58,951 nucleotides of DNA from Calditrichota bacterium (GTDB lineage: Bacteria > Zhuqueibacterota > JdFR-76 > BMS3Abin05), in NCBI GenBank assembly GCA_013151735.1, contig JAADHR010000137.1, positions 1 to 58,951 of the forward strand, read 5' to 3'. Below, piece by piece: positions 17,822 to 56,051 of the stretch (position 1 is the first letter of the stretch; every line of letters starts with the position of its first letter). The notes beneath the pieces were generated by a model. The model saw only the letters and a list, made by a program, of their open reading frames with translations. It had not been told where the DNA came from and did not search any database. The translations under genes and the position numbers were made by a program.

Positions 17822-17924
17822 TGAATTCACTCCACACCCCACTAAGTTCACTCATTTAATTTCAATCAAATCAATTCGTGAAAATTCGTGAAATTGGTGG
17901 GCAACGCTTTTTAGGGCAGACTCA
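17822..17924. repeat. Family A gene-end repeat, copy 1
   Basis: A 103-bp member of a dispersed family. The core CAATTCGTGAAAATTCGTGAAATT is shared almost exactly with copies at 32587 and 55940, and the right end GCTTTTTAGRGCAGACTCA is shared too. Left end TGAATTCACTC is the inverse complement of the right end with mismatches. Flanks are TTAT and TTGT, a possible degenerate 4-bp target duplication. The last three bases form the TGA stop codon of the minus-strand receptor gene. Confidence 0.75.
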
Positions 17925-19760
17925 TTGTTTCATATGAAATTGAAGCCCCAGTTCCACATTCCTTCCGGGCATGGGATATCCCTCTTCCATTTGATAGGCC
18001 TCATCTGTGATGTTTCGGAGGGCCACTTGCACATCTGCCCACCGATTCAGGTGAACACGCCCCAGAAGATCCGTCACAAAAAAATCCGGGAGCTTTTCGC
18101 GATGGTTGTTTTCGCTGTACAGATTGTGTACCCACACAGATTTGATCCCAATATCCACTCTCTTGTTCCGGAAGGTGAGGAGATTGACCAGCTTATGCTG
18201 CGGATTGTAACCCGTCACAGAACCGACATCCTGATGCGTAAAGGAAAGCGTGTTGTTGATGTGAGCGGTTAACCGCAACTTAAGGGAGGTTTCAACTCCC
18301 GTAAAATCAAAGGTTCCCACGTTTCGGAATTTTTTATCCGGGAAATAGAACTGAATGAGATTTTGCCCCTTTAACCGGTAAGCGGCTACATCCACCTGAA
18401 TAAACCGGGTGGAGTAGTTTACACCCATCTCGAAACTCTTGCTTGTTTCGGGCGTCAGGTCGGTGTTGGAAGGCGGATACAGGTAGAGCTGCATCACGGA
18501 GGGAGATCGAAATCCCTGACTAACATTGGCGCGAAGCGAGAGGCTGTTATTGGCCTGAAAAACCAGTCCGATGGAGGGAACGGATTTAAATCCGTAAACC
18601 TCGTGATGATTCAAACGGTATCCCACAGACGCAATAAGCTTTGAAAACAGCATTTGTTGGGTCAGGAAATAGGGGGCCCATTCCAAAACACTCCAGGATT
18701 TATTCCGATTGAGATCCGTTCCACCGTAGGATCTGAGATCAAATCCTACGACGGTTTGATTGTTTTTCCACGGTGAAAATGCCTGACTGAATTTTGCACC
18801 GTTTGTAAAATCGTCGGAGAGATAACCGTCGTAGATGGCATGATGACCGTCGCTTCGGTACACCAGAAGCTCGGTATGTCCAAGAAAAGATTTACCTTTC
18901 AATTGAAAGTCGTATCCGCTGCGGGTAAACCGAAACCAGTTGTTCGTTAAAGGATGACTTTCGGGCCCGGGGTCCAGCCAGAAGCCCCGATAGCGCTTAA
19001 CCGATGCCTGAATGCGCCAGTCCGGCAGGGGAGTGGCAAAAACCTTGGCAAAAAAATCGTGGGCCTGATATCCGCCGGTTTCACGGTTGCTGTCCGTGCC
19101 ATATCCGTTCCAGTAGACAGCAGCGCCCAATCGATCGGAACTGTAAACTTCTTGAATATTAAAAATGCGTTCGCGGAAGCTCCCGGTGGAGAATCGTACC
19201 GAAGTTTTCTTTTGATTGCGAATATCCGGTGTTAAGAGATTAATTACGCCGCCCGTGGCGTTTGAACCGTAAAGCACCGATGCCGGTCCGCGCACAATCT
19301 CAATCCGACTGACGAGGTAGGGGTTCAATGCATTGGAAATGGGGTGATCAAAAATCCCCATCATGGTTGGACGTCCGTCAATCATCGTAACGGCATTCGT
19401 CCCCCGGATCAGAATTTTGCTACCACTCAGATTCTTCGAGCCGGCCGGCCCGCTCTGGCTGACCGAACCCAGCGTTCCGAATTGAATGGATGTGACTCCC
19501 GGAACCTCATCAATAATTTGCCCCAGATTTTGAGCCATTTCCATCCGGATTTCCCCGGCAGGTAAAACGGACACACTGATGGAAAGATCCCGTGTGGATT
19601 GTGGAATCTTTGTGGCCGTAATCACAACGGGGGCCAATTGGTAGGTTGACGTAACGTGACGGGATGTGTCGCTCCGGGCAGGTTGCCCGGCCATCGCCGC
19701 AAGGAATCCGGAAAATACAAAAATCCCGACTAAAACGACCTGTTTTGCGAATCGATTCAT
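17922..19760 (-). CDS. TonB-dependent outer-membrane receptor
   Basis: 612 residues. The start at 19760 is chosen because AAGGAGGG lies directly upstream and a signal peptide follows (about 1-26); the open frame extends 40 residues further without support. The plug domain (about 40-170) contains PVVITATK near its start and the conserved RIEIVRGPASVLYGSNATGGVINL. The rest is a 22-strand barrel typical of vitamin B12, haem or siderophore receptors. The C-terminus is QFHMKQ and the stop comes from the end of a family A repeat, so the native last residues may have been altered. No cobalamin riboswitch was found upstream; the ligand is unknown. Confidence 0.92.
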   Translation of the reverse strand: MNRFAKQVVLVGIFVFSGFLAAMAGQPARSDTSRHVTSTYQLAPVVITATKIPQSTRDLSISVSVLPAGEIRMEMAQNLGQIIDEVPGVTSIQFGTLGSVSQSGPAGSKNLSGSKILIRGTNAVTMIDGRPTMMGIFDHPISNALNPYLVSRIEIVRGPASVLYGSNATGGVINLLTPDIRNQKKTSVRFSTGSFRERIFNIQEVYSSDRLGAAVYWNGYGTDSNRETGGYQAHDFFAKVFATPLPDWRIQASVKRYRGFWLDPGPESHPLTNNWFRFTRSGYDFQLKGKSFLGHTELLVYRSDGHHAIYDGYLSDDFTNGAKFSQAFSPWKNNQTVVGFDLRSYGGTDLNRNKSWSVLEWAPYFLTQQMLFSKLIASVGYRLNHHEVYGFKSVPSIGLVFQANNSLSLRANVSQGFRSPSVMQLYLYPPSNTDLTPETSKSFEMGVNYSTRFIQVDVAAYRLKGQNLIQFYFPDKKFRNVGTFDFTGVETSLKLRLTAHINNTLSFTHQDVGSVTGYNPQHKLVNLLTFRNKRVDIGIKSVWVHNLYSENNHREKLPDFFVTDLLGRVHLNRWADVQVALRNITDEAYQMEEGYPMPGRNVELGLQFHMKQ

Positions 19761-19925
19761 CTTAGAACCCTCCTTTTCCTTAATCTGACTGCATTCAATC
19801 CTGCCGTCTCCGGACGGAGCATTGTCATGTGATTTGAGTTTTCGAAGGTTCTTCGTGAACCGAATTAGGGAATGAAACAAAAGAAGCAGACGACGAAACG
19901 GCTAAAATCCCAATCCGCTGGCAGA

Positions 19926-20351
19926 TCAGGACGATTGCTTTCCTTCCTTAAATTGGAGCACTTTCTCCACAATCTGACGAATCATTTCGGGAAGGCTGTC
20001 GCTGTTTTTTCCGACCACGTCCACATTGCACGTGGTAATGGGCAAAACAATTTTGTGCGCCGGTGAGGATGCCACGGCTTCGGCAATGGCAGGAGTTACT
20101 TCACCCAGCATGGCATTTGCCAGAAGTATGCCGATGGGTCCGATAATCAAATCGACCCGCGGTGCATTCCGGCAGATGGCATTTTCACCGGAGGCCCCTT
20201 TTTGTGCCCCGGATTTCATCATCTGGGAGGTGGCAATGGCATTTGTACCGAATGCCAGAATTTCATCTTCGGATGAAAGATTTTCTTTTAATTTTTGAAT
20301 AATACTGCTTCCAAGGCCCCCTCCCTGGCCGTCAATAATGGCAATTTTCAT
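19926..20351 (-). CDS. DUF3842 family protein
   Basis: 141 residues. It begins MKIAIIDGQGGGLG, a Rossmann-like glycine motif, then FGTNAIATSQMMKSGA, GENAICRN and IIGPIGILLANAMLGEVTP, which together are the signature of DUF3842. Family members are cytosolic proteins of unknown role; nucleotide binding is suggested by the glycine motif. It lies between the PBP4-type peptidase gene and the TonB receptor on the same strand, with gaps of 105 and 165 bases, so it may be co-transcribed with them. Confidence 0.85.
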   Translation of the reverse strand: MKIAIIDGQGGGLGSSIIQKLKENLSSEDEILAFGTNAIATSQMMKSGAQKGASGENAICRNAPRVDLIIGPIGILLANAMLGEVTPAIAEAVASSPAHKIVLPITTCNVDVVGKNSDSLPEMIRQIVEKVLQFKEGKQSS

Positions 20352-20456
20352 AGTGAAATAATTTATCCAAAATAGTCCCGAAAATCAAGACGGAAATCAC
20401 AAAAATAGTCCTCGACCTGTTCCAAAGGCCTTTTCCTGCGTCTTGAGTTTTTCAAA

Positions 20457-21944
20457 TCACCGGTGGAATTTAGCCATCCACACACCGATGGAATCCTGCA
20501 CGGCGCGATAGGGCGAAGCCGAACCGACAAAGTTCTGCATCAGCATGGAAAAGGCCCAGACGTCTCCATCCTGTGTGGGCACATAGCCTGAAAGAGACGA
20601 CACCCCCCGAAGGCTTCCGGTTTTGGCCCGCAATTTTCCCTGAGCAGCCGTTCCGATCATCCGCTTTTGAAGGGTTCCGTCTACACCTGCAATGGGCAGA
20701 GAGGTCAGGTACTCGGAGGAAACGGTAAAATCGCCGTACATGTGTGCGAGTAATCGGGTGATGAGATCGGCATTAATCACATCGTAACGGGAAACCCCCG
20801 ACCCGTCGACAACGAAGTAAGACGTGGAATCGATCCCGATGCTCTGCAGAAACTGCCGCATGGCCTGAAGGCCCTTTTCGGCCGTTCCCGGTTCTCCACG
20901 TGTAACCGCCCCCACGGTTTTTAGCAAAAGTTCGGCTGAGAGGTTGTCGCTGATTTTATTGGTGTTTTCAACCACATCGCGCAGCGGATGCGATTTATGA
21001 ACGGCCAGCGTTTCAGCCGCGTCAGGCGATATGCCCTTTAAAATGTGTCCGTCAATTTGAATGCCATTTTTTTTCAACAGCTCACCAAAAACGGTGGCCG
21101 TGTAGCGTGTGGGATCTTCAATGTTGAGCGTGATCTGATAAGGCGGCGCATTCACGGGGAGCGTGTCCTTAACGGTAATGACATTCTCGCAGGTCATCCA
21201 TTTACGGGAAATTTTAAGGCTGTTAGCCTGAGCCGAATCACCGGTTACGCCATTATTTTCGACCGTAACGTAGTGTGTTTGAGGGAAGATGAAAAGCTTC
21301 ACTTTATCGGAGATTTTTTCAGAGGGTTTGGCCAGCACATTCACGCAGTTGTCATTGAGCGTCAGGGCGCTCAAATGTGCGGCGTAATCATCCGGATCGT
21401 CATCCCACATCCAGCCTTTTCCGCGGGGGAGACTGTCCAGTGCCGCAGCATCGGCCACGAGATTTCCGGTGATGTGAGAGATACCGTCTACCTGCAGTTG
21501 ATCAATGAGATCTTGAAGGTCTTCAACCACCAGGTCGGGATCGCCGCCGCCTTTCAGGTAAAGGTTGCCCGTGATGACGGAATCACCGACACTTGCGCTG
21601 TCTGCCAGCAAACAGGTCTTAAAAGTAAAATTGGGACGCAGAAGGGTCAGTGCGGTTGCCGTTGTCAACAATTTCATATTGGAGGCCGGATTTAAAAGGA
21701 GATCGCTGTTGCGATCGTAAATAACCGTGTGGTTTGTGAGTGAAATTATCTTTACGGCAGCCTGTGTTTCTTTAAAGAGAGGTGTCGTCAGCAGCGAATC
21801 GATTTTTTCCTGCAGATTTTTTACCGGATTGCGGGGCTTTACCCGTTCTTTTTTGGGAACGACACCGGCGCAGGAGGTAAAAAGAATGAGTCCTGCAAGA
21901 ATTAAAATCGTCCTAAAAAACAGCCTGGAATAACCTTTGTTCAT
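20457..21944 (-). CDS. dacB: D-Ala-D-Ala carboxypeptidase/endopeptidase (PBP4 type), lipoprotein
   Basis: 495 residues. Peptidase family S13. The start is at 21944, with AGGAGT just upstream; the frame continues 27 residues further without support. The signal ends in a lipobox LFTSC, so it is probably a lipoprotein. The three active-site motifs are present: SNMK (SXXK), SDN in KISDNLSAEL, and KTG in LRAKTGSLRG. It trims D-Ala or cuts cross-links in the periplasm. A paralogue lies at 42918-44435. Confidence 0.94.
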   Translation of the reverse strand: MNKGYSRLFFRTILILAGLILFTSCAGVVPKKERVKPRNPVKNLQEKIDSLLTTPLFKETQAAVKIISLTNHTVIYDRNSDLLLNPASNMKLLTTATALTLLRPNFTFKTCLLADSASVGDSVITGNLYLKGGGDPDLVVEDLQDLIDQLQVDGISHITGNLVADAAALDSLPRGKGWMWDDDPDDYAAHLSALTLNDNCVNVLAKPSEKISDKVKLFIFPQTHYVTVENNGVTGDSAQANSLKISRKWMTCENVITVKDTLPVNAPPYQITLNIEDPTRYTATVFGELLKKNGIQIDGHILKGISPDAAETLAVHKSHPLRDVVENTNKISDNLSAELLLKTVGAVTRGEPGTAEKGLQAMRQFLQSIGIDSTSYFVVDGSGVSRYDVINADLITRLLAHMYGDFTVSSEYLTSLPIAGVDGTLQKRMIGTAAQGKLRAKTGSLRGVSSLSGYVPTQDGDVWAFSMLMQNFVGSASPYRAVQDSIGVWMAKFHR

Positions 21945-22275
21945 ATTAACACTCCTGCCGATTTTGTTTGAAGATAGTTTGGATTGGTGGCAGTTCAATT
22001 CTCTTTGTTCGGATTTTGTGCCCAATTATTTGTTTCTCTCGAATCGCGTCGTTTTACGATTCGCTATCATTTTAACGGTTTTGCAAATAAAAATCAAGGC
22101 CTTTTTAAATTACTTTAGAAAGACTTGCCAAGAGCAAGAAAAAATTGTAATTTTAAGTAAACTGATTCTGGGCCCTTGAGAAAAAAGTCCACTTTCATAA
22201 AAAAGGCCGGTTTCTGTTGGAACACGCCCAGGCGTGACGGAAACCGCAGGTTTTGGCGGATTGGGAATCTAAAAA
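21945..22275. other. Divergent intergenic region
   Basis: 331 bases between the minus-strand dacB and the plus-strand radical SAM gene. It must hold promoters in both directions, but no convincing boxes were identified. It is AT-rich from 22020 to 22170. Nothing else recognised. Confidence 0.5.
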
Positions 22276-23418
22276 ATGAAACGACGAGAATTTTTGGAAG
22301 TATCCGCTTTGGGGAGTGTGGGGTTGGGAGCACCCCTGGTGCCTCCCTTGATTATCAGAAAGAAGAAGAACGGCATCAAGGATTTAATTGATCACAAGCA
22401 CATTTTTGTGGCCAAGGAAGCCCGATTCTACAAAAAGTTAGAGCACGAGAAGATTCAGTGCGAAATATGTCCCCGGAAATGTGTAATTGACAATATGGAA
22501 CGGGGCTTTTGCGGAAATCGGGAAAATCGGGGCGGAACGTATTACGTTCTGGCGTATGCCAATCCCTGTGCGGCCCATATCGATCCGATTGAAAAAAAGC
22601 CGTTTTTTCATTTTCTGCCCGGCACACAGGCCTTCTCCATTTCCACCGCAGGCTGCAATCTCGTATGCAAGTTTTGTCAGAACTGGCAAATCTCCCAGTT
22701 TCGGCCCGAACAGACCGAGAATATTTACCTTCCGCCGGACAAAGTGGTGGAAATTGCAAAGGATCGAAGGGTAACCTCCATCGCCTATACGTACGCCGAG
22801 CCGGTGGTCTTTTACGAGTACATGTACGATACGTCTGTGGATGCACGGCGCGAGGGTATTCGCAGTGTCATGGTTTCTGCCGGATTCATTAACCCGGACC
22901 CGCTTCGGAAGCTGGTCAAACGATTGGATGCCATTAAAATCGATTTGAAGGCCTTTACGGAAAAATACTATCACGACATCTGTTCGGCGGAGCTTAAACC
23001 GGTTTTGAAAACGCTGGAGGTTCTGCATGACGAAAAAATCTGGTTCGAAATTGTGTACCTTGTGGTTCCCACGTTGAATGATTCGGTAAATGAAATTCGG
23101 CAAATGAGTCAATGGATTGTGAAAACGCTCGGACCCGACGTCCCGCTCCATTTTTCTCGATTTTACCCGCAGTACATGCTCAAGAATTTGCCGCCTACTC
23201 CGGTTTCGACTCTGGAAAAACTCCGGAAAACGGCCATGGAGGCGGGAATCCACTATGTTTACATCGGGAACGTTCCCGGGAATCCGGCGGAGAGTACGTA
23301 CTGTCCCCATTGCGGGAAACGCCTGATTTACCGGATTGGTTACGAGATTATTGAAAATAAGCTGAAGAATGGTAAATGTCCCTACTGTGGAACCAAGATA
23401 CCCGGCGTGTGGTCGTAG
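22276..23418 (+). CDS. AmmeMemoRadiSam-type radical SAM enzyme with Tat-like leader
   Basis: 380 residues. The radical SAM cluster is Cys127, 131 and 134 (CNLVCKFC). An N-terminal Cys motif precedes it (Cys62, 65, 69, 79, in CEICPRKC and GFCGN), and a C-terminal zinc ribbon with two CPxCG motifs (CPHCGK, CPYCGT) follows, as in the PflA-like AmmeMemoRadiSam family. The start is KRREFLE followed by a short hydrophobic Gly/Ala-rich stretch, which resembles a twin-arginine export signal. The partner MEMO1/AMMECR1 genes are not in the window. Substrate unknown. It precedes an RseC-like gene. Confidence 0.85.
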   Translation: MKRREFLEVSALGSVGLGAPLVPPLIIRKKKNGIKDLIDHKHIFVAKEARFYKKLEHEKIQCEICPRKCVIDNMERGFCGNRENRGGTYYVLAYANPCAAHIDPIEKKPFFHFLPGTQAFSISTAGCNLVCKFCQNWQISQFRPEQTENIYLPPDKVVEIAKDRRVTSIAYTYAEPVVFYEYMYDTSVDARREGIRSVMVSAGFINPDPLRKLVKRLDAIKIDLKAFTEKYYHDICSAELKPVLKTLEVLHDEKIWFEIVYLVVPTLNDSVNEIRQMSQWIVKTLGPDVPLHFSRFYPQYMLKNLPPTPVSTLEKLRKTAMEAGIHYVYIGNVPGNPAESTYCPHCGKRLIYRIGYEIIENKLKNGKCPYCGTKIPGVWS

Positions 23419-23555
23419 GGCAGAGAGGAACTTATCTCCACAAGCGATCACCACATGAATTGTGCTGATTGGTCAAAGATGGGCAGGATTTTTTATACGA
23501 TCACCCTGCTTCAACGGGGTGAAAGATTAGTGGGACTTAGAGAGCGGATGAGGAA

Positions 23556-24008: not shown

Positions 24009-24033
24009 CGGGCCAAAAAGGAGGGTAAAGCGA

Positions 24034-25860: not shown

Positions 25861-25924
25861 TAGCGTCAGAATTCGCCGAATTTGTATTCGTGGTTTTTTC
25901 ATATAAAATGAAGGAGAGTGCCAA

Positions 25925-26191: not shown

Positions 26192-26233
26192 GCTTACAAG
26201 ATTTTTTGTGGAAGGTGTCTTTGGCGGGTGGAG

Positions 26234-32076: not shown

Positions 32077-32121
32077 AATCCTACCATTTTTGACCGTTTT
32101 ACCGGCATTATTTATTAATTC

Positions 32122-32264
32122 TTGCCACGAAGACCCCAAAACACGAAGATTATTAGAATTAAAACAAGTAACTTTTCGAAACTCAATTTATTTTGCCCGT
32201 TTTTTTGTTTTAATGAATAGTCATCTATCCTTATGTTTTTTATCCCTTTGTGCTTTCGTGGCAA
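32122..32264. repeat. Family B inverted-repeat element, copy 2
   Basis: 143 bp with terminal inverted repeats: TTGCCACGAAG at left, CTTTCGTGGCAA at right (10 bp perfect at the tips). Inside the left end a second CACGAAG is present and inside the right end CTTTGTG, so the arms continue imperfectly. Same organisation and size as the element at 14943-15082. An open frame that crosses it (32048-32314) is not credible. Confidence 0.65.
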
Positions 32265-32586
32265 ATGAATTTTTCTGGTCAAAAAACCTGTCAATAAAAA
32301 TGATGACGGTTTAGTGAAAATGACCCAAAATGAAGGCAGGGGAAGTGTCCTCTAAAAAGAGGGGATTTAGGGGTGTGTTTTGTGTTTGCCTTGAATGTCT
32401 TCGAGTTAAGACAGAGAATTCCCCCAGAAGTGCATCAGGAATGATTCCAATTTTTTATTGATTCAAACCGATATTTTGGTTACTTTAAATAGGATTTGGG
32501 TTGAACTGCTGTGGCGAATTACGGCAGGTGAATTTGTGGATTTTGAGTTGATTTATTCGGCATTTTTTTAACAGAGATAAATAAAA
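32265..32586. other. Intergenic stretch between two repeats
   Basis: About 320 bases without a credible gene. A short hairpin-like segment, CCTCT-AAAA-AGAGG, occurs at 32349-32362 next to a G-rich run. Otherwise AT-rich with no recognised site. Confidence 0.5.
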
Positions 32587-32698
32587 GAGTTCACTCTAAA
32601 AACCACGAATTACACAAATTACGCCAATTTAATTTCACTAAAATCAATTCGTGAAAATTCGTAAAATTAGTGGGCAGAGGCTTTTTAGAGCAGACTCA
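32587..32698. repeat. Family A gene-end repeat, copy 2
   Basis: A 112-bp copy with good inverted ends: GAGTTCACTCTAAAAA at the left and TTTTTAGAGCAGACTC at the right. The middle contains CCACGAATTACACAAATTACG facing TTCGTGAAAATTCGTAAAATTAG, so the whole element can fold as a long hairpin. The final A is the first base of the queG start codon. Confidence 0.8.
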
Positions 32699-33768
32699 TG
32701 ACGATTTCCGATGAGACCGATTGGGCGGGGGCAACATCCAGAATAAAATCCCTTTTCCAAAAACTGGGGTGCACTCTGGTCGGGGTGGCTCCGGTTAAAG
32801 AGTTTCCTGAATTGGCGTTCTTTGAAACCTGGTTGAATCGCGGATTTGCGGGAGAAATGGCCTACCTGCAGCGGCATCTGGAAAAATCCAAGGAGCCGCG
32901 AAAAATACTGCCTTCTGTAAAAACGGTGTTGGTTTGCGGGCAGAATTACAACACGGCCTACCCGCGTTCCACGTCTGTCCGGAAGAAAAAATCCCGCGGG
33001 TGGATTTCCCGGTATGCCTGGGGCGAGGACTACCATGATGTCCTCAAAGCCATTTTGGTGAAGGGTGCGGAGGCGCTTCGAGATGTTTATCCCGACCTTG
33101 AATTTAAGGTGTATGTGGATACCGGGCCCACACGGGACAGGGTTTGGGCAAAGTATGCGGGACTCGGTTGGTTTGGGAAAAACAGTTGTTTGATCAACCC
33201 CAAAATAGGGTCCTATTTTTTTGTGGGTGAAATACTGTGGAACCTGCCGCTTTTGACCGATCAACCGGTTGCCGATCGCTGCGGAACATGCACCCGCTGC
33301 ATCGAGAGTTGTCCCACGCAGGCCATTGTGGAAAACGGGGTGGTGGATTCCCGAAGGTGTATTTCCTATTTGACCATTGAATTGAAGGGCAGCATCCCGG
33401 AAGAGATGAGAGAAAAGATTGGCAATCACATTTTCGGATGCGACATTTGTCAGGATGTGTGTCCCTGGAACCGAAGTGCACCTGTGAGTGATTTTTCGTA
33501 TTATCAGCCGCGGCCCGAATTTTTCAACCCCGATTTAAAGGACATTTACCGGACGGTTCGGGAAAATTTCAGCCAGGCCTTTCGGAAATCAGCGATGAAA
33601 CGCACCAAAAAGAGGGGGTTGCTTCGCAACCTTGCCGTGGCGATGGGCAATTCAGGGAATATATCGTTTGTTTCGGATTTAGAAGAATTAAGGGAATGGG
33701 ACGAGCCGGTTGTACAAGAACACGCCGAATGGGCCTTGCAAAAACTGGAAAATCAAATAGAAAAATAG
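32698..33768 (+). CDS. queG: Epoxyqueuosine reductase QueG
   Basis: 356 residues. Last step of tRNA queuosine synthesis, a B12-dependent reduction of epoxyqueuosine. The N-terminal part has DTGPTRDRVWAKYAGLGWFGKN, a family hallmark with the catalytic Asp. Two [4Fe-4S] motifs follow: CGTCTRCIESCP near 200 and CDICQDVCPW near 250. A short C-terminal helical (HEAT-like) region closes the protein. The ATG overlaps the end of a repeat and has no ribosome binding site, so the original 5-prime end may have been displaced by insertion. Confidence 0.93.
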   Translation: MTISDETDWAGATSRIKSLFQKLGCTLVGVAPVKEFPELAFFETWLNRGFAGEMAYLQRHLEKSKEPRKILPSVKTVLVCGQNYNTAYPRSTSVRKKKSRGWISRYAWGEDYHDVLKAILVKGAEALRDVYPDLEFKVYVDTGPTRDRVWAKYAGLGWFGKNSCLINPKIGSYFFVGEILWNLPLLTDQPVADRCGTCTRCIESCPTQAIVENGVVDSRRCISYLTIELKGSIPEEMREKIGNHIFGCDICQDVCPWNRSAPVSDFSYYQPRPEFFNPDLKDIYRTVRENFSQAFRKSAMKRTKKRGLLRNLAVAMGNSGNISFVSDLEELREWDEPVVQEHAEWALQKLENQIEK

Positions 33769-40660: not shown

Positions 40661-40737
40661 CCAGTCTCCTGTGATTACACGTTTACAAAAAAATTTGGAC
40701 AGGATTGACAGGATATGTTATTTGTAAATTCATTTGC

Positions 40738-40822
40738 AAAACCACGAACGATACAAATGAAACGAATTAAATTTCACTAAAATTAATTCGTGAAATTCGT
40801 GGGAAAAGCCTTTTGGGGTTGA
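40738..40822. repeat. Family A gene-end repeat, copy 3 (degenerate)
   Basis: About 85 bp, sharing CCACGAAC..TACAAAT on the left and AATTTCACTAAAATTAATTCGTG then AAATTCGTGGG on the right with the other copies. The ends have decayed (CTTTTGGGGTTGAACA instead of CTTTTTAGAGCAGACTCA). It lies between the sigma-54 regulator and the convergent mazG stop at 40826. Confidence 0.6.
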
Positions 40823-40825
40823 ACA

Positions 40826-41602
40826 TTATTCATGGGCTTCTTCCTTTTTAATGGCATTCCAGAGATCGTCCATCTCCTTCAGCGTCGATTCCTCGGGAGA
40901 TTTTCCCTGTGATTGAAGCCTTTCTTCCACCTTTTGAAAGCGTTTGCTGAACTTTCCGATGGTACGCCGAAGGGCATCTTCCGGATTGATTTTTAGAAAG
41001 CGGGATAAATTGACCAGTGCAAAAAGGACATCTCCAAATTCATCTTCAATTTTGTCAGTGTTTCCCGTTTTAACCGCTTCCTTGAGCTCGGCGCACTCTT
41101 CATCGACCTTTGCCCACACGTCAGAAATGTGATCCCAGTCAAAGCCCACCTGGGCCGCTTTTTGCTGGATGCGCCAGGCGCGGAGAAGAGCGGAAAGCTC
41201 TTTGGGAACGCCCTCAATTGCAGACGACCGGCCCTCCTTTTTCTTCAGGCGTTCCCAGTTTCTCGTTTGTTCTTCGGCCGTGTTGATAACCGCATCGCCA
41301 AAAACATTGGGATGCCGCCGGATGAGCTTATCGCTAATGCCCTGAACCACATCTTCAATCGTAAAATGGCCTTCTTCTTTGGCCAACTGGGAATGGAAAA
41401 TTACCTGAAGAAGCAGATCCCCCAATTCTTCTTTCAATGCCGAAAAATCGTCATTGTCCAGTGCCTCCAAAACTTCGTAGGTTTCTTCCAATAAATACTG
41501 CCGCAGCGATTTGTGGGTTTGTTCCCGATCCCAGGGACAACCGTCCGGCTGCCGCAAGCGATCCATGATGGATACCAGGTCTTCGAATTCCTTTCCAGCC
41601 AT
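40826..41602 (-). CDS. mazG: Nucleoside triphosphate pyrophosphohydrolase MazG
   Basis: 258 residues. It hydrolyses abnormal or excess NTPs to NMP and pyrophosphate. The start at 41602 is used because GGGAGAG lies upstream; the frame extends 17 residues further. Two MazG domains are visible. The first has LRQPDGCPWDREQTHKSL and the metal-binding EETYE and EELGDLLLQ. The second has EECAELKEA and DEFGDVLFALVNLSRF. Length is normal. The gene converges on the sigma-54 regulator and diverges from the epimerase gene. Confidence 0.95.
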   Translation of the reverse strand: MAGKEFEDLVSIMDRLRQPDGCPWDREQTHKSLRQYLLEETYEVLEALDNDDFSALKEELGDLLLQVIFHSQLAKEEGHFTIEDVVQGISDKLIRRHPNVFGDAVINTAEEQTRNWERLKKKEGRSSAIEGVPKELSALLRAWRIQQKAAQVGFDWDHISDVWAKVDEECAELKEAVKTGNTDKIEDEFGDVLFALVNLSRFLKINPEDALRRTIGKFSKRFQKVEERLQSQGKSPEESTLKEMDDLWNAIKKEEAHE

Positions 41603-45942: not shown

Positions 45943-45972
45943 TTGTGAATATTTAAAAAAATGTAGTATATT
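45943..45972 (+). promoter_or_regulatory. Possible promoter of the methionine gene
   Basis: TTGTGA (45943-45948) and TATATT (45967-45972), 18 bases apart, 190 bases before the methyltransferase/MTHFR gene. If used, the transcript leader would contain the family C repeat. The -35 is poor. Confidence 0.3.
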
Positions 45973-46015
45973 TTAATTTCATTAAATCAGGAATTTCGTT
46001 TTTTTAAGGGGCGAG

Positions 46016-46110
46016 CTGTAGCCGCAAGCTTTCTGTTTGCGGAGACTGTAGCCGCAGGCTTTACGCCTGCGGAAGAGGAACAGGGATTTTTTGGGGAATC
46101 GTTGCACCCA
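46016..46110. repeat. Family C hairpin repeats, upstream copy
   Basis: Two units of CTGTAGCCGCARGCTTT..TGCGGA lie at 46016-46043 and 46046-46073; the second folds perfectly (CCGCAGGC-TTTAC-GCCTGCGG). A decayed third unit of the other type (GCACCCATAAAGGGCG) is near 46104. The same two unit types recur at 48029-48211 on the other side of the methionine gene. Confidence 0.85.
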
Positions 46111-46162
46111 TAAAGGGCGGGTAAAGGCGTTTTAAATCAGATTCAAAGGTGACAGCTAAAAG

Positions 46163-48022: not shown

Positions 48023-48028
48023 CGTAGT

Positions 48029-48211
48029 CGCACCCATAAAGGGTGCGCTTACGCTGTAGTCGCAGGCTTTATGCCTGCGGATTACAGACAGATGGTTTTG
48101 GGGGATCCGACGCACCCGTAAAGAGTGCGGTTATGCTGTAGCCGCAGGCTTTACGCCTGCGGATTGGAAACAGGTGATTTTGAGGAATGAGTCGCACCCG
48201 TAAAGGGTGCG
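48029..48211. repeat. Family C hairpin repeats, 82-bp tandem period
   Basis: Hairpin units of type 1 (CGCACCCRTAAAGRGTGCG) start at 48029, 48111 and 48193; units of type 2 (GTAGYCGCAGGCTTTAYGCCTGCGGA) start at 48056 and 48138. Each repeats at exactly 82 bases, giving about 2.2 tandem copies. The array begins seven bases after the methyltransferase/MTHFR stop and ends 20 bases before the mutS start. It could terminate, stabilise or separate the two transcripts. Confidence 0.93.
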
Positions 48212-48230
48212 GTTACACAAATGGGATGTT

Positions 48231-50861
48231 ATGGCAGAAAATACACCCTTAATGGAACAATACTGGTCGGTCAAAAACCAGCATAAAAACGAAATTCTTT
48301 TTTTCAGAATGGGGGATTTCTACGAGCTTTTCTACGACGATGCCCGAACGGCCTCAAAGGTGCTCGGACTCACTCTGACCTCGCGGGGCCATGGCGCGGC
48401 GGGTGATGTTCCGCTGGCGGGATTTCCGCATCACGCCCTGGAGGGGTATCTGGCCAAAATGATCCGGGCAGGTTACAAGGTGGCCATCTGCGAACAGGTG
48501 GAAGATCCAAAAAAAGCCAAAAAACTGGTCAAGCGCGAGGTCACCGAAATCGTAACACCGGGCACCATTCTTACCGACAATCTCTTGGACAGCAAACAGA
48601 ACAATTATTTGATTGGCATCTATTTCAGAAAAAACACCTGCGGCTTTTCCAAGGTTGATCTTTCTACGGGTGAGTTTGTTGTCGCGGAATTTCCGCTTGC
48701 GGCAATGGAGGAACAGGTGCTCAATGCCCGGCCGTCGGAGGTTGTTCTTTCCGAGGAACACGCAGACTATTTTAAAAAACACGTGCGAAATATTCCGGGG
48801 TTTACCCTTACCCTTTTGGAGGATTGGCTTTTTTCCAGGCAATATGCTTACGAAATCCTTACCGATCATTTTAAGACCAATTCACTAAAAGGCTTCGGAA
48901 TCGATTCCATGTCGGAGGGGGTCAGCGCGGCCGGTGCGGTTTTGCACTATCTGAAAGAAAACCAAAAAAATGAGCTGAATCATATTCGTAAAATCCGGCT
49001 GTATAATCCGGGGGAGTTTATGATTCTGGATCCGGCCACGCTTCGGAATCTGGAGATTCTGGAAACCCTCTCGGACGGAGGGCGCGAGGGAAGTCTCTTC
49101 TCCGTCATTGACCGCACCCTCACCCCCATGGGAGGGCGGCTGCTGCGCCAGTGGGTGCAGAGTCCGCTCCGGGACGTCCGGAAAATCCGGGAGCGTCTGG
49201 ACGGTGTGGAAGAGTTGGTGAATCACTCCAAAGTGCGGCAAAAACTGGAAACCGTGTTGAAAGATATTAATGATTTGGAACGTCTGGTTTCCCGGGCAAG
49301 TACCCGCCGTGCGAATGCAAAAGATCTGGTGGCCATTCGTTTCTCATTGGAAATCCTGCCGGAGATTCAGGACATCCTTTCGGATGTGGAGGCACTGACC
49401 CTCGATCATATTCGGAGCAATTTGAATCCGCTTCCCGAGCTTACCCGGGAGCTGGCGCGGGCTCTGGCCGACAACCCGCCCCTGACCATCACCGACGGAG
49501 GCATTATTCGCAGCGGCTACAACGCAGAATTAGACGAGCTGCGTGAGATTTCTTCTTCCGGAAAAAAATGGATTGCCAATCTGAGAAATCTGGAACGCGA
49601 GCGCACAGGGATTTCTTCTCTAAAAATAGGTTACAACAAGGTGTTCGGCTACTATATTGAAGTGACCAAACCCCACCTGTCCAAGGTTCCTGCCGAATAC
49701 ATTCGTAAGCAAACGCTGGTTAACGCGGAACGTTTTATTACACCGGAGTTGAAAGAGTACGAGGAAAAGATTGTTGGTGCCGAAGAGAAAATGGCTTCGC
49801 TGGAATATGAGCTGTTCGACGAGCTGCGGGTAAAGGTGGCCCAGCAGGCCGAAATCATTCAGCAAAATGCCCGGCTCATTGCCGAGTTGGATACGCTCTT
49901 GTCGCTGGCGATTGTGGCGGAGGTACAAAAGTATAAAAAGCCCATTGTAAATGAATCCGACCAAATTATTATTCGGAACGGGCGGCATCCGGTGGTGGAA
50001 ACGCTTCTGCCCATCGGAGAAACCTTTATTCCCAACGATACGGAAATCAGCAATCAGAAACAGCAAATTCTGGTGATTACGGGACCGAACATGGCCGGAA
50101 AATCCACGTATATTCGGCAGGTCGGACTCATTGTTTTGTTGGCACAAATGGGCAGTTTTGTTCCGGCCGATTCGGCTGAAATTGGTGTGGTCGATCGCAT
50201 TTTCACGAGGGTGGGAGCCTCTGACAACCTGGCCGGAGGAGAAAGCACCTTTCTCGTAGAAATGAACGAGATGGCCAATATTCTTAACAACGCAACATCC
50301 AGAAGTCTGCTTTTATTGGATGAAATTGGACGGGGAACCAGCACATTTGACGGGTTGTCCATTGCCTGGAGCATCGTGGAATTTCTGCACAATACGCCGG
50401 AGGTGGCGGCAAAAACGCTTTTTGCGACCCATTATCATGAATTAACGGAACTTGAATTGATTTTACCCCGTGTAAAAAACTACAATGTTTCGGTGAAAGA
50501 ATGGGGAGATAAAATTATCTTCTTAAGAAAAATTGTTCCCGGGGGAAGCGACCAGAGCTACGGCATTCAGGTTGCCCGGCTGGCGGGGCTTCCCAAAGAG
50601 GTGATTTCCCGGGCAAAAGAAGTGTTGGCAAATCTGGAAGCCGATGTTCTTACACCCAACCGTGAACCCAAAATTGCCCGCCACCGGCGCGCCTCTGCAC
50701 GGGAAAGGGCCCTTCAAATGGATTTGTTTGAAACAGAGAATCGTGAAATCAAACAGGCGCTTGAATCCATTGATGTGAATCGGCTGACCCCTCTGGAAGC
50801 CCTTCTGAAACTAAATGAGCTGAAGTCACTCATCAACGGGCAAAACAAGAGGAATAGTTGA
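48231..50861 (+). CDS. mutS: DNA mismatch repair protein MutS
   Basis: 876 residues. The start at 48231 (MAENTPLMEQYW) is chosen by homology; the frame reaches upstream to 48207 inside a repeat unit. The mismatch-binding N-terminus has FRMGDFYELFYDDA with the Phe-x-Glu motif. The ATPase has Walker A GPNMAGKST near 630, Walker B LLLDEIGRGTSTFDG and the ATHYHEL His-switch region. Length is normal. The ribosome binding site is weak. Confidence 0.96.
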   Translation: MAENTPLMEQYWSVKNQHKNEILFFRMGDFYELFYDDARTASKVLGLTLTSRGHGAAGDVPLAGFPHHALEGYLAKMIRAGYKVAICEQVEDPKKAKKLVKREVTEIVTPGTILTDNLLDSKQNNYLIGIYFRKNTCGFSKVDLSTGEFVVAEFPLAAMEEQVLNARPSEVVLSEEHADYFKKHVRNIPGFTLTLLEDWLFSRQYAYEILTDHFKTNSLKGFGIDSMSEGVSAAGAVLHYLKENQKNELNHIRKIRLYNPGEFMILDPATLRNLEILETLSDGGREGSLFSVIDRTLTPMGGRLLRQWVQSPLRDVRKIRERLDGVEELVNHSKVRQKLETVLKDINDLERLVSRASTRRANAKDLVAIRFSLEILPEIQDILSDVEALTLDHIRSNLNPLPELTRELARALADNPPLTITDGGIIRSGYNAELDELREISSSGKKWIANLRNLERERTGISSLKIGYNKVFGYYIEVTKPHLSKVPAEYIRKQTLVNAERFITPELKEYEEKIVGAEEKMASLEYELFDELRVKVAQQAEIIQQNARLIAELDTLLSLAIVAEVQKYKKPIVNESDQIIIRNGRHPVVETLLPIGETFIPNDTEISNQKQQILVITGPNMAGKSTYIRQVGLIVLLAQMGSFVPADSAEIGVVDRIFTRVGASDNLAGGESTFLVEMNEMANILNNATSRSLLLLDEIGRGTSTFDGLSIAWSIVEFLHNTPEVAAKTLFATHYHELTELELILPRVKNYNVSVKEWGDKIIFLRKIVPGGSDQSYGIQVARLAGLPKEVISRAKEVLANLEADVLTPNREPKIARHRRASARERALQMDLFETENREIKQALESIDVNRLTPLEALLKLNELKSLINGQNKRNS

Positions 50862-50869
50862 GTTTTCTA

Positions 50870-50898
50870 TTGACAATTCAACGGAATTGTCATAAATT
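50870..50898 (+). promoter_or_regulatory. Promoter with overlapping palindromic operator
   Basis: TTGACA (50870-50875), 17 bases, TAAATT (50893-50898): a strong sigma-70-like pair 42 bases before the PorV/Q-like gene. A perfect inverted repeat, TGACAATTC-AACG-GAATTGTCA (50871-50892), covers the -35 box and spacer. There is no U-tract, so it is more likely an operator than a terminator of mutS. Confidence 0.65.
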
Positions 50899-50939
50899 TA
50901 TATAACTATTAAAAAATATTGAAAATAATAGGTGTTTGA

Positions 50940-51968
50940 ATGAAACGTAAATGGGTCATTCTGTTGGGTGTGTTTTTCATTTTGGGGGGATTGAAGGCTC
51001 TGGAAGCGGGAGAGATTACGGTTGCAAAGTATGCCGGTGATTTTATGTCCAATGGGGTGGGCGCGCGGGCCCTCGGCATGGGGGGAAGCTATGTGGCCGT
51101 AGCCCAGGGAGAAATTGCCGCCTATTGGAACCCGGCCGGTTTGGCCCGAATGAACTACCCGCAGATCAGTTTGATGCATGTGGAGCGTTTCAGCGGAATT
51201 GTGAAGTACGATTTTCTGGGCATCTCCAGACCCTTTGGGGAAAAAGCCACTCTGGCATTTAGCCTGGCACGCACCGGTGTGGACGACATTCCCATTACGG
51301 CACTCCGAAATCCCAATCTGCCAGTGGGCGCTGCCTACGAGGATGCACAAGGAAACCTGGTACGAAATTGGGTGTTTGTGGAGAAATGGACGAAATATGT
51401 CGATTACGTGGCCTATGTTTCCTATGCCCGGATCTGGAAAGACCGGTGGTTTCTGGGGGGGAACATCAAAATGGTTTACAAAGGCGCAGCCGATCACTCG
51501 GCCTGGGGCCTGGGGTTTGATGTGAGTCTATTGAACAACCCCTGGAAGAACCTCTGGCTTGGGGCAAATCTTCAGGATGCAACAACCACCTTTCTGGCCT
51601 GGGATACGGGACGCACGGAATTGATTGTGCCGACACTCAAATGGGGAGCGGCTTATCCGTTTCATTTTTATAAATTTAATATCACACCGGCATTCGATAT
51701 AAATACGCAGTTCGAGGGGATTCGATACGGGGCCCAGGCAAATGTGGGAGCCGTCAGTTTTGATTTTCATGAAGGCGCGGAGGTATCCTACAAAAATCTA
51801 TTGGCCTTTCGCATTGGCAGCGACCGCGGTCATCTGGCTCTGGGTGCCGGATTCCATCTCCCGCGTCTCAATATCGACTATGCCTTTTTGTCGCACAACG
51901 CTTTGGGAGAAACGCACCAAATTTCATTGTCTCTTACCCTTGAAGATGCTAAATTCAAACGGAAATAA
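50940..51968 (+). CDS. PorV/PorQ-family outer-membrane beta-barrel protein
   Basis: 342 residues. A signal peptide (1-23, ending EAG) precedes the conserved GVGARALGMGGSYVAV and AAYWNPAGLA, the N-terminal signature of PorV/PorQ and FadL-like proteins. The remainder alternates as beta strands. PorV helps release type IX secretion substrates at the outer membrane, so this protein may serve the two sorting-domain proteins in the window, although PorV and PorQ or other paralogues cannot be told apart here. It follows a promoter with a palindrome. Confidence 0.85.
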   Translation: MKRKWVILLGVFFILGGLKALEAGEITVAKYAGDFMSNGVGARALGMGGSYVAVAQGEIAAYWNPAGLARMNYPQISLMHVERFSGIVKYDFLGISRPFGEKATLAFSLARTGVDDIPITALRNPNLPVGAAYEDAQGNLVRNWVFVEKWTKYVDYVAYVSYARIWKDRWFLGGNIKMVYKGAADHSAWGLGFDVSLLNNPWKNLWLGANLQDATTTFLAWDTGRTELIVPTLKWGAAYPFHFYKFNITPAFDINTQFEGIRYGAQANVGAVSFDFHEGAEVSYKNLLAFRIGSDRGHLALGAGFHLPRLNIDYAFLSHNALGETHQISLSLTLEDAKFKRK

Positions 51969-51983
51969 AGGAACGGTTTTTTA

Positions 51984-52862
51984 ATGATTATCAGTATGAC
52001 GGGTTTTGGCAGGGGGGATTGTAAAAATAACGAATTGGAAGTATCGGTTGAGGTTCGTTCGGTTAATAACCGGTTCTGGGATGTGACGCTTCGGACTCCC
52101 AAATCCCTTTCAGCGCACGAACAGGCTATCAAAGACGTCACCCGGAAGTACATTTCCAGGGGGCGCATCAGTATTTACGTCTCGGTGAAATCCGTAAATC
52201 CGGAGAATCTTGGTATTCAGTTGGACCATGATCTGGTTCGTGCGTATAAAAAACTTCTGGAAGACTTAAAAGAAACAGCCCAAATTGAAGAACCGGTCAG
52301 GATTGAGCACCTGACCCAGTTTTCGGATATCTTTACAGTTGAAAATGTGGAGGAGGAATCTGCAGAGACCTGGGTGTGTACCCAAAAAGCCCTGGAAAAA
52401 GCCCTGGAAAGCCTGAATGAAATGCGCAGGAAAGAAGGGGAAACCCTGGGAAAAGACATAAAAAATCGGATTTCCAAATTAAATCAATATATAGAAGAAA
52501 TAGAGATTATCTCCAAACAACACATTCCCGAAGAGTACGCGGCCATGAAGGACCGGCTCAGAGAGATTCTGGAATCACCTGAAATTGACACCAGTCGTCT
52601 GGAAACGGAAATCGCCATTTTATCGGACAAATTGGATGTAACCGAAGAATGCGTGCGGTTTAAAAGCCACACGGGCATGTTTTTGGATTTAATGAATTCG
52701 AATGAACTTGTTGGTCGAAAGCTCAATTTTTTACTGCAGGAAATGAACCGTGAAGTAAACACGATCGGGGCAAAGTCCAATTGTGCGGAAATTTCACACC
52801 GTGCCGTATTTATGAAGGAAGAAATCGAGAAAATCAGGGAGCAAGTTCAAAACATTGAATAG
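51984..52862 (+). CDS. yicC: YicC/YloC-family endoribonuclease
   Basis: 292 residues. The start MIISMTGFGRG and the near-end EMNREVNTIGAKSN, SHRAVFMKEEIEKIREQVQNIE are the family signatures. Members are cytosolic endoribonucleases linked to RNA turnover. It begins a classic run yicC-remA-gmk-rpoZ-coaBC; it follows the PorV/Q gene by 15 bases and may share its transcript. Confidence 0.95.
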   Translation: MIISMTGFGRGDCKNNELEVSVEVRSVNNRFWDVTLRTPKSLSAHEQAIKDVTRKYISRGRISIYVSVKSVNPENLGIQLDHDLVRAYKKLLEDLKETAQIEEPVRIEHLTQFSDIFTVENVEEESAETWVCTQKALEKALESLNEMRRKEGETLGKDIKNRISKLNQYIEEIEIISKQHIPEEYAAMKDRLREILESPEIDTSRLETEIAILSDKLDVTEECVRFKSHTGMFLDLMNSNELVGRKLNFLLQEMNREVNTIGAKSNCAEISHRAVFMKEEIEKIREQVQNIE

Positions 52863-52877
52863 AAGAGGAGTGGTGAT

Positions 52878-53135
52878 TTGGACTATCAGATGATTAGTGT
52901 AGGATACAAGAATATAGTTGCCAGAAACAGGATTATTGCCATTGTTTCTCCAAATTCCAGGCCGGTCAAGAATTTGATTCTTCAAGCACGGGAAAAAGGC
53001 AAGCTGGTTGATGCCACACTGGGAAAGCGCACAAAATCCGTTATTATCACCGATAGCGACCATGTAATCCTTTCGACCAATTCCACGGACACATTGTCCC
53101 AGCGCATCAAGGACATGAACCATAAGAATTCATGA
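52878..53135 (+). CDS. remA: RemA-like (DUF370) regulator
   Basis: 85 residues from TTG 52878, with GAGGAG seven bases upstream; ATG 52890 is an alternative. The signature is complete: ISVGYKNIVARNRIIAIVSP, LIDATLGKRTK-like segment, and VIITDSDHVILS. RemA forms DNA-binding rings that control matrix genes in Bacillus. It overlaps gmk by four bases. Confidence 0.94.
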   Translation: MDYQMISVGYKNIVARNRIIAIVSPNSRPVKNLILQAREKGKLVDATLGKRTKSVIITDSDHVILSTNSTDTLSQRIKDMNHKNS

Positions 53136-53731
53136 GGGACTTTGTGGGGAAAGGATTACTCTGTGTTCTGTCATCACCTTCGGGTGGTGGAAAAACCTCG
53201 GTTATTCGGGAAATTCTGAGAAGGAAGCCTGATTACACCTATTCGATTTCGGCCACAACCCGACCCCGGCGCGGGCACGAGAAGGACGGAATAGATTATT
53301 ATTTCTTAAGCAAAAAGGACTTTGAAGAAGGGATAAAACGAGGGGATTTTATTGAGTGGGCCGAAGTGCACGGGCACCTGTACGGAACTCCCCGGGAATC
53401 CATAGAAGTAAAATTGAAACAGGGGAAGGTTGTTTTGCTGGATATTGACGTGGAGGGGGGAATGGCAATCAAAAGGCTCTACACCGATCGGGCCTTGTTG
53501 ATTTTCCTGAAACCCCCGTCCGTTGAAACACTTGTCGAGCGTTTGAAAAAGCGGTCGACTGAAACAGAGGCACAGATCAAAAAACGCCTGGAACGGATTC
53601 CAAAGGAAATGGCATTTGCCGATTTTTACGACGTGGTCATTATTAACGACGATTTTGATCAAACCGTTAACCAAGTGATAGAAGCAATTGAAACCTATCG
53701 AAAGCAAGTGGAGGTAAAAAAGAATGGTTGA
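53132..53731 (+). CDS. gmk: Guanylate kinase
   Basis: 199 residues. Phosphorylates GMP to GDP. P-loop SSPSGGGKTS, then SISATTRPRRGHEKDGIDYYF for GMP binding, DIDVEGG for Walker B, and the lid with KRSTET. The start ATG overlaps the remA stop by four bases (ATGA), giving translational coupling. Confidence 0.97.
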   Translation: MRDFVGKGLLCVLSSPSGGGKTSVIREILRRKPDYTYSISATTRPRRGHEKDGIDYYFLSKKDFEEGIKRGDFIEWAEVHGHLYGTPRESIEVKLKQGKVVLLDIDVEGGMAIKRLYTDRALLIFLKPPSVETLVERLKKRSTETEAQIKKRLERIPKEMAFADFYDVVIINDDFDQTVNQVIEAIETYRKQVEVKKNG

Positions 53732-54017
53732 AACACTGCCATTGGGCGAAATCAAGAAAAGAACAAATAATATTTATGAACTGGTGGTGGCCCTTGCCAA
53801 ACGTGCGCGACAAATCAATGAAGAACGCCGGGCTCGTTTGCACATGGAAATTAATACAAACGATGAATTTGAGGACTTGGAAGACGCCCTCAATCTTCGT
53901 CCTTTGGAAGGCCATGTTTTTGAACGAAAAATCAAGCCCACGCGTCAGGCGATTGAAGAGTTTTTTCAGGGTAAACTGGAAATCAAGTATCCCGAAAACA
54001 ACGTGAATTCCGAATGA
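53724..54017 (+). CDS. rpoZ: RNA polymerase omega subunit
   Basis: 97 residues. Contains NIYELVVALAKRARQINEE, the conserved helix that binds the beta-prime subunit. It helps polymerase assembly and, in some bacteria, ppGpp sensing, which fits the rel gene downstream. It overlaps gmk by eight bases and coaBC by four. Confidence 0.93.
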   Translation: MVETLPLGEIKKRTNNIYELVVALAKRARQINEERRARLHMEINTNDEFEDLEDALNLRPLEGHVFERKIKPTRQAIEEFFQGKLEIKYPENNVNSE

Positions 54018-55231
54018 AGTGGTTTGAAAATAAAAAGATTCTCTTTGGCGTGACCGGAGGAATTGCCGCCTACAAAGCCTGTGAATTGGTACGCGAGCTG
54101 AAAAAACAGGGTGCCGATGTTCAGGTGGCCATGACGCAGGCGGCCCAAAAATTTGTTTCGCCGCTCACATTTGAAACCCTGACCGATCAGGATGTTCTGA
54201 CGGAGATGTTTCCCGCGCAAAAACGGGTCGGAACACGCCATATCGATATTCCCAGAATGGTGGACCGGGTTTTTATTTGTCCGGCAACCGCCAACTTTAT
54301 TTCGAAAGTGGCACACGGCATTGCCGACGATTTACTTTCGACCATGGTGATGGTTGCAGGAGCGGAGAAGACGGTATTCTGTCCGGCCATGAATACGGAT
54401 ATGTACATGAACCCCATTTTTCAGGAGAATATGAAGCGTCTGGAAAAAATGGGCTACCGGTTTGTGTCACCGGAGACCGGAGAATTGGCCTGTCACACGG
54501 AAGGTGTGGGCCGGCTGGCCAGTAAAGAGAGAATTGTTGATATCTTTAAAAGGGAATTAATGGGATCAAGTGAGCTAAAGGGACATTCCATTCTTGTGAC
54601 GGCCGGTCCCACGGAGGAGCCTCTGGATCCGGTGCGTTTCATTACAAATGCGTCCACCGGGAAAATGGGGTTTGCAATAGCGGAAGCGGCGGCCCTGGCC
54701 GGTGCTGAAGTAACACTCATCTCTGGTCCGACCCATCTTCGCCCCTTTACGGGTGTGAGGTTTGTGCGGGTTCGGACGGCCCTGGAAATGCGGGAGGCCG
54801 TTCTGAAGGCGTATGAAAGGGCAAACGGCGTCATTATGGCGGCAGCCGTATCGGATTACCGGCCTGCCACTTATTCCAATCAGAAAACAAAAAAGGGCGC
54901 CGGAAAGCTCGTACTGGAGCTGGAAAAAAATCCCGACATTCTGAAGGAATTGGGGAGAAATAAAAATGGCCGGATTCTTATTGGGTTTGCCGTTGAAACC
55001 ACCAACGAGCTGGAATATGGTCAGCAAAAGCTCATTGAAAAAAATCTGGACATGATCGTGGTCAATAATTCTCAACGGGAAGGCGCAGGGTTCGGCGGGG
55101 ATACGAATATTGTAACCTTTTTAATGCGTTCGGGGGAGCGGCAGGAGCTGCCGAAATTAACCAAGTTTGAAGTGGCCCAACGCATTATCCGACAGTACAG
55201 TCGAATTGGTGGCGAGCGGTTTCAAAAATAG
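54014..55231 (+). CDS. coaBC: Phosphopantothenoylcysteine decarboxylase/synthetase CoaBC
   Basis: 405 residues. CoaC domain (1-190): VTGGIAAYK start, PATANFISKVAHGIADD, and the PAMN motif AMNTDMY with the catalytic Cys nearby. CoaB domain (190-405): VTAGPTEEPLDPVRFITNASTG-like nucleotide site and AAVSDYRP, then EKNPDIL. Two steps of coenzyme A synthesis. It overlaps rpoZ by four bases. Confidence 0.96.
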   Translation: MKWFENKKILFGVTGGIAAYKACELVRELKKQGADVQVAMTQAAQKFVSPLTFETLTDQDVLTEMFPAQKRVGTRHIDIPRMVDRVFICPATANFISKVAHGIADDLLSTMVMVAGAEKTVFCPAMNTDMYMNPIFQENMKRLEKMGYRFVSPETGELACHTEGVGRLASKERIVDIFKRELMGSSELKGHSILVTAGPTEEPLDPVRFITNASTGKMGFAIAEAAALAGAEVTLISGPTHLRPFTGVRFVRVRTALEMREAVLKAYERANGVIMAAAVSDYRPATYSNQKTKKGAGKLVLELEKNPDILKELGRNKNGRILIGFAVETTNELEYGQQKLIEKNLDMIVVNNSQREGAGFGGDTNIVTFLMRSGERQELPKLTKFEVAQRIIRQYSRIGGERFQK

Positions 55232-55239
55232 AGCATCTT

Positions 55240-55935
55240 ATGGCTGAAATGACAGAAATAGTGCCCGATTTTTTAACATACCTCAGGCAGCAACAAGAGA
55301 TTTATGGAGACGGATATTTGGTATCAAAAGAAGAAGCCGACGAAATCATTGAACTGTTTCGGAAAAAAGAGCTGACACTGCAGGAATTTTATGAAGCGAT
55401 CAAGGACTGCCAGAGATGTCCTCTGTCGGAAACGCGAACGCACCTTGTTTTTGGGGATGGAAACGAAAAAGCCGATCTGATGCTCATCGGAGAGGCTCCG
55501 GGCAGGGATGAAGATCTGAGCGGCGTCCCCTTTGTGGGAAGAGCCGGCCAGCTTTTGAATAAAATACTGGAGGCCATCCAATTTAAGCGGGAGGATGTGT
55601 ACATCGCCAATATTATAAAATGCCGGCCCCCCAATAACCGGGATCCGTTGCCATCCGAAGTCGAAAAATGTGAACCGTATTTGAAAAAACAGATCGAAAT
55701 CATAAAACCCAAACTTATTCTGGCATTGGGCCGCATTGCAGGACAAACGCTCCTGCGGACCAACGCCTCACTGACCGCGCTGCGAGGGAAAGTGCACAAT
55801 TATCACGGGATCAAATTGGTGGTCACCTACCATCCTGCAGCGTTATTGAGAAATCCCCACTGGAAAAAACCCACGTGGGAGGATGTGCAATTTTTGCGAA
55901 AATTATACGATGAAGAAGTAGGCAAAAAAGAATAA
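55240..55935 (+). CDS. Type 4 (Fe-S) uracil-DNA glycosylase
   Basis: 231 residues. Removes uracil from DNA. The [4Fe-4S] ligands are Cys57, 60, 128 and 144. Active-site motifs GEAPGRDED and VTYHPAALLRN are present. About 50 extra N-terminal residues precede the usual family core. A family A repeat lies directly after its stop codon. Confidence 0.95.
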   Translation: MAEMTEIVPDFLTYLRQQQEIYGDGYLVSKEEADEIIELFRKKELTLQEFYEAIKDCQRCPLSETRTHLVFGDGNEKADLMLIGEAPGRDEDLSGVPFVGRAGQLLNKILEAIQFKREDVYIANIIKCRPPNNRDPLPSEVEKCEPYLKKQIEIIKPKLILALGRIAGQTLLRTNASLTALRGKVHNYHGIKLVVTYHPAALLRNPHWKKPTWEDVQFLRKLYDEEVGKKE

Positions 55936-55939
55936 TCAT

Positions 55940-56051
55940 TGAGTTCACTCTAAAAACAATAGATTACAGAAATTACGCGAACTTAATTTCATAAAAGTCA
56001 ATTCGCGAAAATTCGTGAAATTGGTTGGCAACGCTTTTTAGAGCAGATTCA
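55940..56051. repeat. Family A gene-end repeat, copy 4 with TCAT duplication
   Basis: 112 bp. Ends are TGAGTTCACTCTAAAAA and TTTTTAGAGCAGATTCA, inverted with a few mismatches. TCAT is present immediately outside both ends (55936-55939 and 56052-56055), a clean 4-bp target-site duplication. The insertion is directly after the udg stop codon and 14 bases before the dnaB start. Confidence 0.88.

Follow-up and report, generated by a model that had tools for sequence, protein, structure and literature searches.

ERIC, the enterobacterial repetitive intergenic consensus, has a length of 127 bp (PMC2229807, PMC10969869). RUP of Streptococcus pneumoniae is of similar size, with 107 bp and 108 intergenic copies, and its mobilisation in trans is attributed to IS630-Spn1, an insertion sequence with similar terminal repeats (PMC2229807). 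Most bacterial elements of this kind have TA-type ends (PMC2229807). QMITE2 of Coxiella burnetii, as cited in PMC10969869, is a MITE found chiefly in 3' untranslated regions.

The four repeats analysed here lie in a stretch of 58,951 nucleotides from a Calditrichota bacterium, referred to as the window. They belong to a single MITE family, of which about 90 copies can be recognised across the 225 contigs of this MAG (3.95 Mb). The family is well defined and of a known general kind, an ordinary bacterial mini-transposon. Its consistent ends, target duplications and genome-wide copies bear out the reading of the initial annotation, which had regarded the repeats as small non-autonomous elements with inverted ends. 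Very probably, they are MITEs with common ends that carry a transposase-made 6-bp duplication at ATNNAT, and their position at gene ends results from selection in combination with the target sequence. Neither the motif strings nor the combination of MITEs and KSB1 gave a match in the literature searched, so that the family is apparently undescribed. The elements also had no match among the Rfam families at gathering score; the sole match in the window is an FMN riboswitch elsewhere (RF00050 at 2494-2613, 114 bits).

Copies, ends and target site

A sequence-only family model, derived from 20 of the genome's copies, detected about 90 distinct loci at an E-value of about 1e-6 or better, with values down to 1e-32, and a DNA search of the genome gave at least 40 copies among the matches listed. 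Within the window, the strong matches to this model are exactly the four copies recognised in the initial annotation (E-values of 4e-34 to 1e-16). The core motif AATTCGTGAAAATTCGTG occurs there three times with up to three mismatches, compared to 0.12 expected occurrences.

All four copies were thus recovered, and their borders were corrected to the following positions on the forward strand. Copy 1 (17823-17923, 101 bp) has the core GAATTC...GACTC and a decayed left arm, and the target hexamers CTTATT on its left (17817-17822) and ATTGTT on its right (17924-17929) are the same at four of six positions. Copy 2 (32587-32697, 111 bp) is the nearest of the four to the consensus and is flanked by ATAAAA and ATGACG, without an intact duplication. 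Copy 3 (40726-40824, 99 bp) has decayed ends, lacks one AATTCGTGAA unit and is followed by the right target hexamer ATTATT (40825-40830). Copy 4 (55941-56050, 110 bp), with udg (55240-55935) on its left and dnaB (from 56065 or later) on its right, is enclosed by an exact duplication of ATCATT (55935-55940 and 56051-56056).

The core of the family, GAGTNNACTCTAAAAA...TTTTTAGAGNNGACTC, spans about 99-113 bp, with GAGTNNACTCTAAAAA as the terminal inverted repeat at both ends and a 6-bp target duplication on both sides. In this genome, complete cores are mostly 90-113 bp long, and their reading frames are broken by stops, which leaves no coding capacity. The 56 complete copies, extrapolated to the model ends, start with GAGT and finish with ACTC. 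Their left and right flanks are more alike than shuffled pairs at a length of exactly 6 bp (z=7.0), whereas all other lengths have z-scores of about 2 at most. Exact 6-bp duplications were found for 6 of these 56 copies, compared to 0.26 in shuffled pairs, and duplications with at most one mismatch for 13, compared to 2.4. The signal is stronger in a set of 52 elements recognised by terminal repeats only, nearly all from other genomes, in which 28 exact duplications contrast with 3.0 expected (z=12.3). In this genome, the target hexamer reads as the palindromic ATTAAT, and in the relatives as ATNNAT (A 88%, T 83%, A 85%, T 96%). Consistent ends and 6-bp duplications are therefore present genome-wide, and the refutation test of the initial annotation, which asked whether they were missing, did not refute its reading.

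A 4-bp TCAT target duplication had been proposed initially. It was ruled out by the flank statistics, which are significant at 6 bp only; TCAT is a part of ATCATT.

Further evidence comes from orthologous sites that are occupied in one genome and empty in another, a criterion of MITEs. The udg-dnaB site is empty in the congener G001, where the spacer has 73 bp between the matching segments and no element, compared to 215 bp here. The reverse case is an element of G001 (C78:11977-12090) for which the matching interval of the window is shorter and element-free. These sites also bear on the idea that the repeats are chance similarities of AT-rich intergenic spacers. The elements are AT-rich and many of them are decayed, but the low E-values, the consistent ends, the 6-bp duplications and the occupied and empty sites all contradict this idea, which the duplications and the empty site already refute and which can be dismissed for practical purposes.

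The window also contains other repeats. A second dispersed type, TTGCCACGAAGACCCCAAAACACGAAG...GTGCTTTCGTGGCAA, is found at 15039-15106 and 32097-32164, inverted between the two sites and 75% complementary. A third family at 46015-46117 and 48029-48207 consists of CTGTAGCCGCAGGCTTTACGCCTGCGGA palindromes and CGCACCC.TAAAG.GTGCG hairpins, partly arranged between genes in tandem units of 82 bp. The interval 32309-32382 belongs to another repeat family and matches many places in G001 (C14, C41, C75, C91, C92, C125, C22), two of them near contig ends.

Position relative to gene ends

The initial annotation described three copies as touching gene ends. The contact itself was confirmed, and the count rises to four of four, since the right target hexamer of copy 3 contains the mazG stop codon TAA (40826-40828, reverse strand). 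At copy 1, the stop codon TGA (17922-17924) of the TonB-dependent receptor gene (17922-19760, reverse strand) had been attributed to the element. Only the GA is part of the element, and the T comes from the target DNA. The A of the queG start codon had likewise been assigned to copy 2. This base (32698) is the first of the target hexamer and lies just outside the element, and the ATG (32698-32700, forward strand) comprises the first three bases of the target-side DNA abutting the copy. Copy 4 starts 5 bp past the udg TAA, as originally described, and the duplicated hexamer ATCATT begins with the last A of this stop codon.

Every AT-GAG junction between target and element contains TGA in one frame, and TAA follows at base 11 inside the element in a second frame. 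Because the junction carries this TGA, it provides the stop of the TonB receptor gene and that of four other genes which end with the same T-GA overlap. The suggestion that the elements change translation signals is therefore valid for stops, with TGA built into the junction, and found no evidence for starts. The elements might also affect expression.

Genome-wide gene-end statistics were calculated for the sequence stretches around copies, with genes called by a home-made codon-usage caller trained on this genome. None of 91 copies is located inside a called gene, though coding sequence holds about 73% of the target weight. This count may treat a gene interrupted by an insertion as two separate genes, and in about five cases, possible split or fused genes, a long reading frame appears once the element is taken out. 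In intergenic gaps, 20 insertions are found at -2 to 10 bp from a stop, compared to 11.3 expected (about 1.8-fold, p=0.0008). If the target hexamer is included as a weight, for complete copies only, the excess is 14 compared to 9.2 (about 1.5-fold, p=0.02). Insertions within 20 bp of a start, a position that is approximate for the called genes, are depleted in intergenic gaps (8 compared to 15.7 expected, p=0.003). This avoidance persists after target weighting, both within 20 bp (5 compared to 9.5, p=0.03) and within 30 bp (7 compared to 13.2, p=0.01). The proposed preference for, or tolerance at, coding boundaries thus applies to stops as a modest excess and fails for starts, which are avoided.

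The excess at stops, with and without target weighting, could also arise if the insertion machinery actively sought stop codons or translation-termination sites, that is, by site choice and not by selection. The window would agree with this, as each of the four copies meets a gene end, either directly or through its target hexamer. Such a mechanism is quite improbable, since the effect becomes smaller once the preference for ATTAAT is modelled, the remainder can be explained by selection for harmless sites, and the majority of copies are not located at stops.

Selection against damage, together with a target containing TAA, is a plausible cause of the gene-end pattern. In the preferred model, the transposase would cut the palindromic ATNNAT, with ATTAAT as the best target, with a 6-bp stagger, and this staggered cut would give rise to the 6-bp duplication around the inserted element. 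Selection would most likely remove insertions that hit coding sequence or lie close to a gene start. The target itself would hold or abut stop codons, as ATTAAT reads TAA on both strands, and the last A of TAA or TGA can serve as the first A of the target. Reading from a gene into the element, on either side, would usually meet a stop quickly, because the AT-GAG junction has TGA and TAA in two frames. An apparent preference for gene ends can thus arise largely from target sequence and selection, and not from gene sensing.

Hairpin folding, carriers and candidate transposase

The consensus folds as a long imperfect hairpin, with z-scores of -4.4 and -5.7 on the two strands relative to shuffles. 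Pairing of the inner arms is above shuffles between lineages (z 4.5, e.g. a change from CCAC/GTGG to CCGC/GCGG) and slightly above shuffles within the genome (z 2.2), a covariation that is no more than suggestive, given that shuffling ignores relatedness and that the arms are made of similar units. No common structure was found by RNAalifold on the first alignment. The hairpin, the inner-arm pairing and the excess of copies adjoining stop codons could point to domesticated 3'-end signals, such as terminators, RNase sites or mRNA-stabilising hairpins, that are retained as working RNA hairpins. Such a role is unlikely to explain the elements. Within the genome, the terminal-repeat pairs have no extra pairing (z -0.3), and 56 compensatory changes compare with 54-81 in slid controls. 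The orientation relative to tandem genes is not significantly biased (37 versus 24), a search of copy 4 for an intrinsic terminator found none, and many copies are far from stops, with 13 located between two gene starts.

The preferred reading as MITEs agrees with the distribution of the ends across the phylum. The terminal repeat TGAGTNNACTCTAAAAA is present in 20 of 82 phylum genomes, whereas reversed-pattern controls gave 0-1 matches each, and the named carriers are mostly assigned to candidate division KSB1. Some carriers have the CCACGAATTACAC...GTGAAATTNGTGG interior in common, and others combine the same ends with a different interior (L224 of G074, L230, L211). Varying interiors with fixed ends and a fixed target rule are as expected of MITEs moved in trans. 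The family model gave no hits in six IMG/VR contigs with a short-pattern match, and no match to the element was found in plasmid and phage collections.

Two further observations concern the carriers. The genome G074, with 2.3 Mb and a completeness of 56%, has 47 terminal-repeat matches (L224, L236, L184), nearly all of them TGAGTCAACTCTAAAAA, with the differing interior CCAGGTATT...AATACCTGG and many copies near contig ends; these copies probably represent a recent burst. In G000, an element of about 50 bp at C115:3195 (L046 from 1501) has both terminal repeats and almost no interior.

Tentatively, the elements may be viewed as a phylum-wide MITE superfamily that is characterised by one terminal repeat, the ATNNAT rule and exchangeable interiors. 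The CACNAATTN-unit hairpin of the commonest interior might then be conserved by compensatory changes between lineages, possibly since folding of the single strand plays a part in transposition or in the host transcript, and the TAA in the target might cause insertions to tend to reuse a stop codon. This wider proposal is considerably less certain than the interpretation as MITEs itself.

A transposase gene with the same ends, for which the initial annotation had suggested a search, could be traced in the form of broken remnants and in relatives only. In L213 (G010), a TIR pair 1285 bp apart surrounds a frameshifted DUF772/DDE_Tnp_1_6 gene with the DUF772 N-terminal half and the DDE_Tnp_1_6 C-terminal half in different frames; the flanking hexamers match at only four of six positions. 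L333 (G005) encodes a shortened, internally deleted protein that matches both halves of L213 with 46-47% identity. Its gene is followed by TTTTTAGAATGGACTC and then ATTAAT, and its left end is not recognisable. The element ends are thus common to L213 on both sides and to L333 on one side, and these two were the only positives when matches to PF05598 and PF13751 in the relatives were examined for element ends. Remnants of this type were absent from this genome, neither this genome nor the others searched yielded an intact transposase with these ends, and viral sequences scanned for the transposase gave no match. Short TIR pairs, including a 338-bp pair in C125 of this genome, a 296-bp pair (L174) and others of 250-600 bp, were left aside as autonomous candidates, being too short for a transposase. 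Beside the transposase remnant of L333, a further palindromic element with the ends ATAGTGTCTGTCCGAAAA...TTTTCGGACAGACACTAT was observed at 1046-1172.

The L213 fragment scored 21.5 bits against the NCBIfam IS1182 model (NF033551), far below its cut-off of 270, and for this reason the partner is called only IS1182-like. Distant relatives of the transposase on haloarchaeal plasmids (L254-L258) have 33-36% identity and a weak NCBIfam IS1182 match, and by inspection their elements have GAG/GAC ends and 7-bp repeats (AGAGTAT, AGAGCAT, AGAGGTT). Judging from the shared ends, an IS1182-like transposase would move the MITEs, and a working copy is presumably present, or once was, in this lineage or close to it.

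Comparison with known elements

For genomes of the KSB1 phylum, these results define a MITE superfamily by its exact ends, its target and the length of its duplication, as needed for annotation. Knowledge of the elements helps to avoid misreading gene ends that are made by them, and to explain some contig breaks, as many copies in G074 lie close to contig ends.

By description, the elements resemble ERIC in being long imperfect palindromes of about 110-127 bp with a MITE-like character, in having mostly intergenic copies that number from tens to hundreds, some of them at gene 3' ends, and in their presence across a wide taxon. They differ from ERIC in the 6-bp ATNNAT duplication, in the GAG...CTC ends and in belonging to another phylum. 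With RUP, they have the size, the intergenic copies and the presumed mobilisation in trans in common. However, the partner of RUP is of the IS630 type, whereas the MITEs described here have a 6-bp duplication and a proposed partner that is IS1182-like, with DUF772/DDE_Tnp_1_6. QMITE2, as cited in PMC10969869, is likewise a MITE, with its mainly 3' untranslated location, in a different host. The L213 and L333 fragments have the DUF772 and DDE_Tnp_1_6 architecture of the IS1182 family, but both genes are broken, and the duplication of the MITEs is 6 bp long, compared to 7 bp in the haloarchaeal relatives by inspection.
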